Shown here: positions 3,190 through 63,437 of the stretch, in pieces
Numbering within the stretch: position 1 is the stretch's first letter
Layout: each line of letters opens with the position of its first letter
NCBI GenBank assembly: GCA_015689735.1
Contig: WVSP01000003.1
Span: 372,001 to 436,000, forward strand
From: Rhodobacterales bacterium LSUCC0031
GTDB taxonomy: Bacteria; Pseudomonadota; Alphaproteobacteria; Rhodobacterales; Rhodobacteraceae
DNA: 64,000 bases
Reading direction: 5' to 3'
The notes under the pieces: model-generated
Database searches by the model: none
Seen by the model: the letters and a program-made list of their open reading frames with translations, nothing else
What the model was told of the DNA's origin: nothing
Position numbers and translations under genes: made by a program

Positions 3190-4131
3190 ATGCTGCGCTA
3201 CATCCTCACCCGCGCCTTTTCCCTGGGCCTCAGCCTGATCATGGCGAGCGTGGTGATTTTTGCGCTGATCGAGGTCATCCCCGGCGATCCGGCCAGCTAC
3301 ATGATGGGGCTGAACGCAACGCCCGAAAACCTTGCTGCGCTGCGGGCCGAGCTTGGGCTCGATGCGCCCCCGCTTGCGCGCTACCTCGGATGGGTCGGTG
3401 GCATGCTGACCGGCGACTTCGGCATTTCCTACACCTACCGCGTGCCGGTCGCCGATCTTGTGGCTGATCGGATCTGGGTCTCTTTGCCCTTGGCGATCTA
3501 CGCGTTGACGCTGTCCACACTGATCGCGTTTCCCATCGGTATCATCGCCGCATCGCGCCGCGGCACATGGGCCGATCATGGGGTCATGGGGGCGACACAG
3601 CTGGGCGTCGCGGTGCCGAATTTCTGGTTTGCGATGCTGTTGGTGCTGATCTTCGCGGTCAATCTGCGCTGGTTTTCGGCAGGCGGGTTTCCCGGCTGGT
3701 CCGACCCGGCTGCCGCTCTCAAGGCGCTGACCCTTCCGGCCATTGCGCTGGCCTTGCCGCAATCGGCCATCCTTGCGCGGGTCATGCGTTCGGCGCTTCT
3801 CGACACGCTCGACCAAGATTATATCCGCACCGCGCGCGCCAAGGGCCTCTCGCGCGCGCAAACCATCCGCCGCCATGCGCTGCGCAATGCATTGATCCCG
3901 GTGCTCACGATCATTGGCCTGCAATTTTCGTTCTTGATTGCAGGGGCGATCATCATCGAGAACGTGTTCTTCCTGCCCGGTCTTGGGCGGTTGATCTTTC
4001 AAGGCATCACCCAGCGCGACCTGATCGTGGTGGAATCGGTGACCATGGTGTTGGTGTTCGGGGTGATCGTCGTGACGTTTCTGGTCGATCTGGCCTACGC
4101 GCTCATCGACCCAAGGCTGCGCCGCCGATGA
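3190..4131 (+). CDS. ABC transporter permease, DppB/OppB type
   Basis: Inner-membrane permease of a peptide/nickel-type ABC importer, 313 residues. The start MLRYILTRAFSLGLSLIMASVVIFALIEVIPGDPA is the standard first membrane segment followed by the conserved PGDP motif. About six hydrophobic segments follow. The cytoplasmic coupling loop RTARAKGLSRAQTIRRHALRNALIPV lies near residues 213-238 and contacts the ATPase. The protein ends LIDPRLRRR, as DppB proteins do. Its stop overlaps the start of the second permease by 4 nt (ATGA). No periplasmic substrate-binding protein gene accompanies it, so the substrate cannot be inferred from a receptor. Confidence 0.9.
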   Translation: MLRYILTRAFSLGLSLIMASVVIFALIEVIPGDPASYMMGLNATPENLAALRAELGLDAPPLARYLGWVGGMLTGDFGISYTYRVPVADLVADRIWVSLPLAIYALTLSTLIAFPIGIIAASRRGTWADHGVMGATQLGVAVPNFWFAMLLVLIFAVNLRWFSAGGFPGWSDPAAALKALTLPAIALALPQSAILARVMRSALLDTLDQDYIRTARAKGLSRAQTIRRHALRNALIPVLTIIGLQFSFLIAGAIIIENVFFLPGLGRLIFQGITQRDLIVVESVTMVLVFGVIVVTFLVDLAYALIDPRLRRR

Positions 4132-17367: not shown

Positions 17368-17595
17368 CTCTGCCCGCAAAAGCCCCTATCGACCCGCGCA
17401 ATAGCCGGAAAGCACCAGCTTCCCGGTCCCGTGCAGTGTCATGGGATCGCCCCCCGTCAGCGAGGTTTCGCCCACGGGGGCAATGCCCGTTTGCGGGCTT
17501 GCCCTCGAAACTTCCACCGCAACGGATAATGGTGCATTCCGGCCTCGCCCCCACATCACGGGGGCATCTCGGATCGTCAAAGGGGGCCAGCGCCC

Positions 17596-43269: not shown

Positions 43270-43521
43270 CGTGACAGGCTCCTCTCCTGCGGTCTGGCCG
43301 CGCGACGTGACACTCTCAAGTGAAATGGCGATTTCTTGTCAAGCCTTTCACTTCACGGGTTGGCGCTGGCGGGCAAACCCGGTAACCCGCGCGTGAACCA
43401 TGGACCCAGGCTTCGGCCCGGGTGGCTCTTCCGGCCGCCGATCCGCCGGACCACAGCAGGCGAATATGCCTGCGCATGCCGCGGCGGCAGCGATCCTCGG
43501 GCCTGCGGACAGGACAGCTTC

Positions 43522-52249: not shown

Positions 52250-52294
52250 AGTGCTCCATTGTAAAGGATCCCCACGCCAGGAAGCCGTTGTGGG
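52250..52294 (-). ncRNA. SAM/SAH-type riboswitch upstream of metK
   Basis: On the minus strand CCCACAACGGCTTCCTGGC then GTGGGG, ATCCTTTACAATGGAGCA, gives the compact H-type pseudoknot known upstream of metK in Rhodobacterales. Stem 1 is CCCAC/GTGGG. The hairpin-loop segment GCTTCC can pair with GGAGC (52253-52257). That GGAG also serves as the Shine-Dalgarno of metK, so ligand-stabilised pairing would block translation. Confidence 0.88.
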
Positions 52295-52315
52295 TCATCG
52301 GTCGGCATTAAGCCG

Positions 52316-60503: not shown

Positions 60504-61376
60504 ATGAATTTCGACAATCTCGACCAATTCAGCGCCGTGGCGTCAGGCAGTTTCGGCAAAGGCCCTGCGGCGATGCTGATTGCCGAGGACAATGTCGAGG
60601 TCGCCTCGAGCATCGGGCATCTGCGGTCATTGGGGTTTCGGCAACTGTTCGTATTGGCAGCACCCGATCTCGAGGTGGCGCCGCTTGCGGATGACATCAA
60701 GCTTCAGCAGCATGTGATCCGCGCGCCCACCCGCGCACCGGGCATCACCCAGACCGCCATGAACACCTTGATCGACAAGATGCCCGGCGAATGGCTGCAT
60801 TACTGCTACAATGGTGAATACCTGTTCTACCCGTTTTGCGAAGATCGCAGCGTCGGCGAAATGGTGAACTGGGTGATGGAGGAACGCCGCAGCGCGATCA
60901 TGACATATGTGATCGATCTTTATGCTGCTGATTTGCGCACCCATTCCAATGCTGTCTCGCTTGATGGGGCGATGCTGGATGCCTCGGGCTATTATGCCGA
61001 AGGGCGCAGTGACAGCAACGGTCATGCCAAGGATCGACAGTTGAATTTCTACGGCGGGTTACGGTGGCGATTTGAAGAGCATGTCGCCAAGCCCAAGCGA
61101 AAGATCGACCGTATCGCCTTGTTTCAGGCAAGGCCCGGTTTGCGGCTGAACGAGGATCACACCCTTAGCGATGAAGAGATGAACACCTTTGCCTGCCCAT
61201 GGCACAATTCGCTGACGGCGACGCTTTGTTCGTTTCGGGTGGCCAAGGCGCTGCGGACCAACCCGGGGTCACGTCACGATATCCATGATTTCCGCTGGCA
61301 CAATTCAACACAGTTCCATTGGTCATCGCTGCAACTGATGGAGCTTGGGCTGATGGAACCTGGCCAATGGTTCTAA
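60504..61376 (+). CDS. glycosyltransferase-like protein (GT2-type)
   Basis: 290 residues without membrane segments. The organisation, with MNTLIDKMPGEWLHYCYNGEYLFYPFCEDRSVGEMVNWVMEERRSAIMTYVIDLYAADL in the first half, resembles the glycosyltransferase family 2-like proteins of Rhodobacterales (Pfam Glyco_tranf_2_4 style). The DxD metal site is not obvious; E-x-L-F in NGEYLFYPFCED may replace it. WHNSTQFHWSSLQLMELGLME closes the protein. The stop is 1 nt before the GTG of the MFS gene. Substrate unknown; confidence in the family is moderate. Confidence 0.6.
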   Translation: MNFDNLDQFSAVASGSFGKGPAAMLIAEDNVEVASSIGHLRSLGFRQLFVLAAPDLEVAPLADDIKLQQHVIRAPTRAPGITQTAMNTLIDKMPGEWLHYCYNGEYLFYPFCEDRSVGEMVNWVMEERRSAIMTYVIDLYAADLRTHSNAVSLDGAMLDASGYYAEGRSDSNGHAKDRQLNFYGGLRWRFEEHVAKPKRKIDRIALFQARPGLRLNEDHTLSDEEMNTFACPWHNSLTATLCSFRVAKALRTNPGSRHDIHDFRWHNSTQFHWSSLQLMELGLMEPGQWF

Positions 61377-61377
61377 C

Positions 61378-62577
61378 GTGCTGAGCGCCCCGCCCGGGGT
61401 CTGGCGCGATCCCGCGATCTTGTCCTTCATGGTAGCCGAAACCGTGATCTGGGCTGCGATCTTCTACAGCTTCCCGGCGCTGGTCTTGCAATGGCAAGCC
61501 GAGTTTGGCTGGTCGGCAACGCAGGCCATGGGCGCATTCTCGGTCGCGCTCGCGGTGCAAGGTGTTGCGGCCCCATGGGTGGGCCGCTTGATCGACAGAG
61601 GTGGTGCGCCCTTGGGCATGCCCTTGGGCGCGATGGGTGGTTTGATCGGTCTGGTCGCGCTGACCCAGATCACCACGCTATGGCAATTCTACGCCGTCTG
61701 GACATGGCTGGGGCTGATGATGGGCTTCACGCTTTATGATGCGGCCTTTTCGGTCGTGACGCGCGCCCGCGGCCCTTCTGCGCGCGCAGGTATCACTGCG
61801 ATCACGTTGGCGGCAGGCTTTGCCTCCACGCTGGCCTATCCCTTGACCGCTGCGATGATCGGGGTCGGCGGCTGGCGTGGGGCCGTTTGGGTTCTGGCCG
61901 CGCTGGTCCTCGCGCTGGTGCTGCCGCTTTTGTGGATCGGGGCCAAGCGGCTCGAGGGCGAGGCCCGCACCCGCATGTCAGAGCAGACCCAGAAAGCGGC
62001 AGCCGCGCGGCAACGCATCACAGGCAAACCGGGCTTTTGGCCATTAGCGGGGGGATTTGCGCTCACAGCGCTTGGATCGGCCATTTTACTGGCGCATCTG
62101 CTGCCCCTCATGGCAGCCCTTGGTGTGCCGCCAGCGCTGGCGATCCTCGCCGCGTCAACCATCGGCCCGGCCCAAGTCGCCGCGCGTGTCTTGTTGATGC
62201 TTGCCGGCGCGCGCGTATCGGCATGGCAGGTTTCGCTGGGATCATTCATCCTTTTGAGTTTTGCGGCCGTGACAATTGGCGCGGCGGCGGCACTGCCCAT
62301 GCTGGCATTGGTCTTTGCCCTTGCCCAAGGGATGGGCAATGGCGTGATCTCGATCCTGCGTCCCGTCGTCACCCGCGAGGTGATGGGCGAAGCCGGTTTT
62401 GGTGAAAGTGCAGGCGCCGTGGCGCGGCTATCGCTCTTTGCCTTTGCCATCGCGCCGGGATTGGGCGCGGTGCTGGCCGATATCGCGGGCTATGGCGCCG
62501 TGATCGGGCTGTGCGTGATCGCGCCACTTCTGGGTGCGGCCCTGTTGCGCCGCCTGACGCCGGGGGGTGAGGCATGA
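61378..62577 (+). CDS. MFS transporter
   Basis: 399 residues with about twelve hydrophobic segments. The usual MFS loop 2-3 motif is present in the form GRLIDRGGAPLGMPLGAMGG. The start is GTG 61378, 1 nt after the previous stop, which implies translational coupling; no ATG with a better context is seen before the first helix (SFMVAETVIWAAIFYSFPALVLQW). Substrate not evident. It overlaps the next small gene by 4 nt. Confidence 0.88.
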   Translation: MLSAPPGVWRDPAILSFMVAETVIWAAIFYSFPALVLQWQAEFGWSATQAMGAFSVALAVQGVAAPWVGRLIDRGGAPLGMPLGAMGGLIGLVALTQITTLWQFYAVWTWLGLMMGFTLYDAAFSVVTRARGPSARAGITAITLAAGFASTLAYPLTAAMIGVGGWRGAVWVLAALVLALVLPLLWIGAKRLEGEARTRMSEQTQKAAAARQRITGKPGFWPLAGGFALTALGSAILLAHLLPLMAALGVPPALAILAASTIGPAQVAARVLLMLAGARVSAWQVSLGSFILLSFAAVTIGAAAALPMLALVFALAQGMGNGVISILRPVVTREVMGEAGFGESAGAVARLSLFAFAIAPGLGAVLADIAGYGAVIGLCVIAPLLGAALLRRLTPGGEA

Positions 62578-62846: not shown

Positions 62847-63302
62847 TCAGGCCGTTTGCGCCTCGATCACCTTGGACGTGGCGCGGGAGATCGCGATCTG
62901 ACGCGGCTTCAACGCCTCAGGCACCTCGCGCAGAAGGTCGATATGCAGCATGCCGTTTTCATGGGTCGCGCCGGTCACACGCACATGATCGGCAAGCTGA
63001 AAGCGTTTTTCAAAGGCGCGCGTCGCGATCCCACGATGCAGATAGACGCGTTCACCCGTTTCGGTCGCCTTGCGGGCGGCGACGACCAATTCTTGCTCTC
63101 GCTGCTCGACGCTCAGTTCATCCTCGGCAAATCCGGCCACCGCGATCGAAATGCGATACGCGCCATCATTGGTCTTTTCGATATTGTAGGGGGGGTAGGT
63201 GCTGGCGGCGCTGTCTTGGGTCAGCACGCGATCAAGCAAATCAGCCATGCGGTCAAAGCCGACTGTGGCACGATAAAGCGGGGTCAGATCATAATTTCGC
63301 AT
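62847..63302 (-). CDS. small heat-shock protein, Hsp20/IbpA family
   Basis: ATP-independent holdase chaperone of 151 residues. MRNYDLTPLYRATVGFDRMADLLDRV is the IbpA-like N-terminus. The alpha-crystallin domain spans about residues 38-128 (PYNIEKTNDGAYRISIAVAGFAEDELSVEQREQELVVAARK and GMLHIDLLREVPEALKPRQIAI with the I-x-I/L-type tail). The 5' leader shows a ROSE-like thermometer that hides the ribosome site, and a sigma-32-type promoter lies further upstream, so production is expected to be heat-induced at two levels. Confidence 0.94.
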   Translation of the reverse strand: MRNYDLTPLYRATVGFDRMADLLDRVLTQDSAASTYPPYNIEKTNDGAYRISIAVAGFAEDELSVEQREQELVVAARKATETGERVYLHRGIATRAFEKRFQLADHVRVTGATHENGMLHIDLLREVPEALKPRQIAISRATSKVIEAQTA

Positions 63303-63402
63303 GTGTCATCCTCCGTTGAGCGACAACTGAAAAGGCGGACTGCCCGATCTTGGCGCAGTCCTTGGGTTCACGAGATGGCCCGACACGGCGGCACCATCCT
63401 GC
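63303..63402 (-). promoter_or_regulatory. ROSE-like RNA thermometer in the hsp20 leader
   Basis: On the minus strand the leader ends TTGTCGCTCAACGGAGGATG then ACACA and the ATG. TCGCT matches the conserved U-Y-G-C-U of ROSE elements and can pair with the Shine-Dalgarno GGAGGAT (63308-63314) across a 4-nt loop, closed by TGTC/GACA. Upstream a 7-bp hairpin, GGACTGC/GCAGTCC (63337-63361), gives the usual second stem. The leader is about 100 nt long. Confidence 0.7.
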
Positions 63403-63408
63403 CTGTCG

Positions 63409-63437
63409 AGGTAGGAACACGAAAATCCGCTTTCAAG
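63409..63437 (-). promoter_or_regulatory. sigma-32 (RpoH)-type promoter of hsp20
   Basis: On the minus strand CTTGAA (63432-63437) is followed by a 17-nt spacer and CTACCT (63409-63414), close to the alphaproteobacterial heat-shock consensus CTTGAA-N17-CYTATNT. The transcript would start near 63402 and give a leader of about 100 nt. Confidence 0.65.

Follow-up and report, generated by a model that had tools for sequence, protein, structure and literature searches.

The 5' leader of an hsp20 gene in the window (the whole 64,000-nucleotide stretch of DNA analysed here) is very likely a ROSE-like RNA thermometer behind an RpoH-type promoter, one that would be opened by heat. The leader, positions 63303-63402 on the minus strand, is about 100 nt long and can form three hairpins, the last of which spans the Shine-Dalgarno (SD) sequence (Table 1). 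Comparison with the sequences of relatives establishes that the three hairpins are conserved and covary, that they are placed before hsp20, and that the promoter recurs. An earlier note on this DNA had proposed heat control of hsp20 at two levels; the comparison supports both the RpoH-type promoter and the ROSE-like leader that it named, but the functional part of the proposal stands as an expectation. The coordinates that it assigned to the whole region, 63303-63437, are correct. As a kind, a ROSE-like leader of hsp20 is not new: the ROSE class is long known, and a heat-shock promoter upstream of the leader is the usual arrangement for such genes. In Pseudomonas putida, ibpA is already known to combine sigma-32 transcription with a ROSE-like leader (PMC3669281), and RpoH dependence is mentioned together with ROSE in Sinorhizobium meliloti (PMC3989490). 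New here are a model more sensitive than that of Rfam, the short leader of a paralogue, and the conserved residues of IbpA self-repression.

Table 1 Features of the hsp20 locus in the window.
Feature	Position	Strand	Basis
-35 element CTTGAA of the RpoH-type promoter	63432..63437	-	Sequence, recurrence in relatives
-10 element CTACCT, 17-nt spacer from the -35 element	63409..63414	-	Sequence, recurrence
Hairpin I, GAUGG/CCAUC, YGCC...GGG core common to relatives	63374..63398	-	Rfam and R2 alignments, covariation
Hairpin II, GGACUGC/GCAGUCC	63337..63361	-	R2 alignment, folding, covariation
Hairpin III, presumed thermosensor, GUUGUC[G]CUC AACG GAGGAUGAC	63305..63327	-	Alignment, folding, pairs kept in relatives
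UCGCU, U(U/C)GCU anti-SD motif	63319..63323	-	Sequence
SD GGAGG, within hairpin III	63310..63314	-	Sequence, folding
hsp20, controlled gene, IbpA-like small heat-shock protein of 151 aa	62847..63302	-	Pfam and NCBIfam

The product of hsp20 contains an HSP20 domain (Pfam E 8.3e-17) and, among NCBIfam models, is closest to IbpA (159.3 bits, under the cut-off of 212). The AUG start codon is at 63300-63302 (minus strand), and the transcript is expected to start at about 63401-63403, which gives the leader its length of about 100 nt. The alphaproteobacterial heat-shock promoter CTTGAA-N17-CTACCT that the earlier note had read is present at 63409-63437 (minus strand). It combines CTTGAA, a spacer within 16-18 nt, a C-rich -10 element and a fixed distance from the gene, agreeing with what we take to be the RpoH consensus. 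The genome also contains rpoH, with four matches to the RpoH model of NCBIfam, the top one at 367.3 bits, over the cut-off, and the second at 273.8 bits. In relatives, CCCACA is a frequent -10 element, taken with a spacer of 16 bases. Upstream regions were scanned for CTTGAA-N16-18-CYYA with a score of at least 8.5, 105-150 bases 5' of the start codon. With this scoring scheme, which is our own and was drawn up after inspection of the very same sequences, an RpoH-type site is present in 75 of 80 upstream regions, compared with 7.7% of shuffles. The 80 regions are those of the window and of 79 of the best 80 of 481 relatives, the remaining one (L083) not having enough upstream sequence. When the window's own upstream region is shuffled 2000 times, the score of its promoter is reached once. 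From the motif and its conservation, we infer that RpoH transcribes hsp20 from this promoter. Adjoining hsp20 is a gene for an MFS transporter (61378-62577, plus strand), whose nearest NCBIfam model is ArsK (173 bits, cut-off 400); the ORF on the other side of the MFS gene (60504-61376) has no Pfam or NCBIfam match.

At the 3' end of the leader, UCGCU, CAAC and GGAGGAU (63308-63314, minus strand) follow one another before the AUG, exactly as the earlier note described. Hairpin III comprises nine pairs and one bulged G. A UYGCU is found 5' of the SD in all 81 leaders compared (the window and the best 80 of 481 relatives). The bare motif UYGCU-N2-12-GGAGGAU occurs seven times in the 2.98-Mb genome and is therefore not decisive by itself; on account of these seven matches, we rejected it as proof of a thermometer. 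The decisive feature is the motif in combination with two upstream stems and the hsp20 start. Where the earlier note had seen one further stem upstream, two are supported (hairpins I and II). The leader is thus a 5' UTR directly before hsp20, in which UYGCU pairs imperfectly with the SD in the 3'-proximal hairpin, and it has three stem-loops, each with double changes, where ROSE-like leaders have two to four.

To compare leaders, we took the orthologous hsp20 loci of the best 80 of 481 relatives, many of them Rhodobacteraceae, with Roseicyclus among the nearest. Alignment A1 consists of 60 more distant leaders; the window and its 20 nearest relatives are left out. In A1, 82.5% of the pair cells of the three-hairpin structure form (89.2% in helix III), 16 of the 23 pairs show changes in both partners, and such double changes occur in all three hairpins. 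None of 500 shuffles reaches the covariation score, and pairing falls to 38-57% when the partners are slid by one to three columns. RNAalifold on A1 returns hairpin III only (model R1). Hairpins I and II were named by us from the column statistics of A1 itself, so the covariation test on A1 is not fully independent. Within the window's own group, hairpin III is nearly invariant, and hairpins I and II covary in an alignment that was fitted to the model. The conserved leader might alternatively be a DNA site for a repressor and not an RNA element, as the ROSE sequence was at first taken to be (PMC4166951). We find this barely credible, because the double changes preserve RNA pairs and the lengths between hairpins vary among the A1 leaders, both of which fit an RNA.

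Detection of held-out leaders is a cleaner test than covariation within A1. Model R2 was built from A1, and so the window was unseen in training. In a search of the window's own genome, R2 scores the leader at 49.8 bits (E 7.8e-10), with some extra sequence signal from the roughly ten coding bases past the start codon that the model includes; the next match has an E-value of 0.0955. The 20 left-out nearest relatives score 42.5-66.1 bits. A sequence-only model gives the window leader 34.9 bits, indicating that the base pairs add about 15 bits.

The earlier note had also proposed a search with the ROSE covariance model, whose outcome is divided. Among 4227 Rfam families, only ROSE (RF00435) comes near the leader, at 22.8 bits (E 0.53 over 801 bases). 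The match is on the right strand, runs from end to end of the model (1-94 of 94), and ends just inside the hsp20 coding start; it is also the top-scoring ROSE match genome-wide (E 0.465). The leader shares with RF00435 the order of stem-loops, a UYGCU that faces the SD with a bulged G, and the place directly before hsp20. However, its score is about half of the gathering cut-off of 45 bits, which places it outside the Rfam family as curated and makes it a member only of a wider ROSE-like class. The same holds for nearly all of its family: a search of 149 family genomes, among them its own, gives a ROSE match at E≤0.5 in 36, and in one of them the match exceeds the cut-off. We fetched 30 of these 36 matches, 29 of which stop 6-7 nt into the coding sequence of the orthologous hsp20; the thirtieth, the one over the cut-off, precedes a different HSP20 gene. 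Genome-wide searches thus hit the same gene start too often for this to be chance. An all-Rfam scan at E≤1 of 20 loci, 18 of them family orthologue loci, gives a ROSE-type match in one leader only (locus L062; ROSE_2, 26.9 bits, cut-off 65). The weaker matches in the window's own genome, both to ROSE (L002, L003) and to R2 (L118-L121), have no hsp20 gene adjoining and look like chance matches. Elsewhere in the window, three other RNAs score over their Rfam cut-offs, namely a SAM-SAH riboswitch (52252-52299, minus strand), a sul1 RNA (43399-43455, plus strand), and an ffh RNA (17436-17488, plus strand).

At E≤0.01, R2 matches 184 of 198 family genomes, a count that overlaps the training sources (at most 60 of the 198), which match by construction. 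Five of the 14 family genomes that have no match at this threshold carry a close hsp20 orthologue (61-70% identity), and four of these five score with R2 in a search restricted to the locus (19.7-51 bits). The fifth (L225), whose start codon was not located by the script, gives no R2 match in the locus-only search. Of the other nine, two have no protein match and seven have matches of at most 51% identity only. As judged from sequence, these results indicate that ROSE-like control of hsp20 is close to universal in the family. In the class (Alphaproteobacteria), R2 matches 102 of 289 genomes, at least four of them from the family, compared with 18 of 289 for the Rfam ROSE model at the same nominal E-value, one of these over the cut-off, the E-values of the two models being not strictly comparable. 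Annotation based on Rfam therefore probably misses most ROSE-like leaders of alphaproteobacterial hsp20, and a broader ROSE seed in Rfam would catch leaders that are now missed.

Of the R2 hits in genomes other than that of the window, we fetched 59; the family search supplied 30 and the class search 29 (three of the latter again from the family). All 59 precede hsp20, with the start located by pattern in 56 and by reading in three, and a protein profile matches hsp20 at every locus. Downstream of hsp20 in Salipiger bermudensis lies a Ruegeria cis2 sRNA (RF02645, 106.2 bits; L085 2528-2677). The earlier note expected a clear case here to extend the range of ROSE. This does not hold, as more than 40 ROSE candidates had been predicted in alpha- and gamma-proteobacteria (PMC3669281, PMC4166951), and a 2011 paper reports ROSE-like motifs upstream of ibpA and hspD in Nautella sp. 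R11, of the Roseobacter clade (PMC3230580). In the open-licence literature, we found no larger ROSE study in this family, which is weak evidence of absence.

Folding energies tell less. In free folding, the leader is no more stable than its shuffles (z -0.70), and free folding alone does not give the three hairpins. At 37 °C, the predicted energy is -27.8 kcal/mol for the three-hairpin fold and -40.3 kcal/mol for a competing fold of the leader, a gap of 12.5 kcal/mol; in the competing fold, too, the SD is mostly paired. Predicted opening of the SD in 80 leaders (the window and 79 relatives) is not below that of 28 other starts in the window, which were picked by a simple rule and left uncurated (one-sided p 0.26-0.53). 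We rejected thermodynamic melting as proof of the thermometer, since the leader behaves like these 28 control starts and its best predicted fold is not the ROSE fold. Standard folding energy rules handle non-canonical pairs poorly, so the folding result is weak evidence either way. ROSE helices contain such pairs (PMC3669281, PMC4166951).

These unremarkable results for single-sequence folding and SD opening, together with the low Rfam score, would suit an ordinary structured 5' UTR, in which UCGCU pairs with the SD only incidentally, owing to a conserved start context, and RpoH alone exerts the heat control. Such a UTR does not account for the covarying pairs across the 60 relatives, for an anti-SD UYGCU retained in every leader of the window and the best 80 of 481 relatives, or for the R2 matches throughout the family (some of them training sources) and the placement of every fetched hit before hsp20. 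We consider it very unlikely.

With a ROSE-like thermometer as the preferred reading, the control of hsp20 may be pictured as follows. Heat would raise active RpoH, and hsp20 would be transcribed from the CTTGAA-N17-CTACCT promoter. At low temperature, hairpin III would pair UCGCU and its neighbours with the SD and keep translation low, the single bulged G keeping the helix weak. On warming, hairpin III would open and ribosomes would bind, as ROSE thermometers do; hairpins I and II would presumably remain folded and guide hairpin III. Melting, control of translation and RpoH dependence are thus all predicted for hsp20.

The protein itself suggests a further possibility. In E. coli, IbpA acts through the 5' UTR of its own mRNA to repress translation. 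Arg93 is essential for this self-repression, which also requires an aromatic residue at position 34 and positively charged ones at 97 and 98; according to the authors, Arg93 and Tyr34 are well conserved in alpha-proteobacteria (PMC10474464). The window's Hsp20 and its orthologues from the best 80 of 481 relatives, 81 proteins in all, invariably carry Arg93 and Tyr34 (E. coli numbering) and R or K at both 97 and 98. E. coli IbpB, which lacks self-repression, has an aromatic residue at 34 (Phe) but differs at 93 (Gln), 97 (Leu), and 98 (Ser). The hsp20 paralogue of the window's own genome keeps Tyr34, Arg93, and Arg97 and has Ser at 98. The leader could accordingly be mainly a target of self-repression, with free Hsp20 binding its own 5' UTR and blocking translation until heat-damaged proteins titrate it away; melting of hairpin III would then be less important, and self-repression may also act alongside a thermometer. 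Besides the residues, hairpins I and II are more conserved than masking of the SD seems to require. On the other hand, the residues might be retained for chaperone function, the proteins tested are, in the available text of the paper, gamma-proteobacterial (PMC10474464), and a UYGCU facing the SD suits temperature control. We regard this alternative as possible, if somewhat doubtful. The conserved residues make aggregation sensing through the same leader directly testable.

A reading that joins both layers appears unlikely to us. In it, the leader would be a three-input device comprising the RpoH promoter, the ROSE thermometer, and a putative binding site for the encoded Hsp20. The conserved upstream hairpins would form the recognition site, namely hairpin I throughout and, in many relatives and E. 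coli ibpA but not in the window, a hairpin II that has a bulged G and whose 3' arm resembles an SD. The latter corresponds to the motif CYGUCC...GGARGG of the middle hairpin of E. coli ibpA, which occurs in 36 of the 60 A1 leaders and in none of 4050 shuffles of the 81 leaders, and is absent from the leaders of the window and its 20 nearest relatives. Among 21 leaders parsed from the class search, the motif is found in one (L172), which belongs to the same family, and it is weakened as a class-wide feature. If the three-input reading were true, alphaproteobacteria would have a self-repression feedback like that of E. coli IbpA, and the 5'-proximal ROSE hairpins, whose function is said to be incompletely understood (PMC3669281), would gain a role.

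R2, for which only this family supplied training sequences, also picks up the ibpA and ibpB leaders of E. coli, at 20.3 and 17.2 bits in a 4-kb stretch, with the ibpA leader at 3924-4001 of that stretch (L239). However, these scores are low and are aided by a similar coding start, and the window's group is without the middle-hairpin motif. The short thermometers of Pseudomonas ibpA likewise combine sigma-32 with a UYGCU/SD hairpin, but they have two hairpins, unlike the three of the window leader (PMC3669281). Their short form resembles instead the leader of the second hsp20 of the genome, which lies outside the window (L006/L192); this leader is short as well, and in it UCGCU precedes AAGGAU. 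This paralogue is present in 56 of 61 genomes, and UYGCU stands 5' of the SD in all 30 fetched family loci, the genome's own copy included (L192-L221). R2 gives its leader 8.7 bits, under an unrelated match of 9.1 bits in the same locus, so the ROSE-like call rests on motif and recurrence, which suggest a second, shorter ROSE-like leader. Nautella sp. R11, of the same bacterial group, likewise has two leaders per genome before the same type of gene; however, the account of them in the available text of the paper is a single sentence, without alignment, model or test (PMC3230580). For the third hsp20 of the genome (L004), the best R2 score is 5.3 bits, which is not credible. Many paralogue leaders contain an upstream YGCC...GGGGCC stem, with a CCATAT-like stretch still further up.
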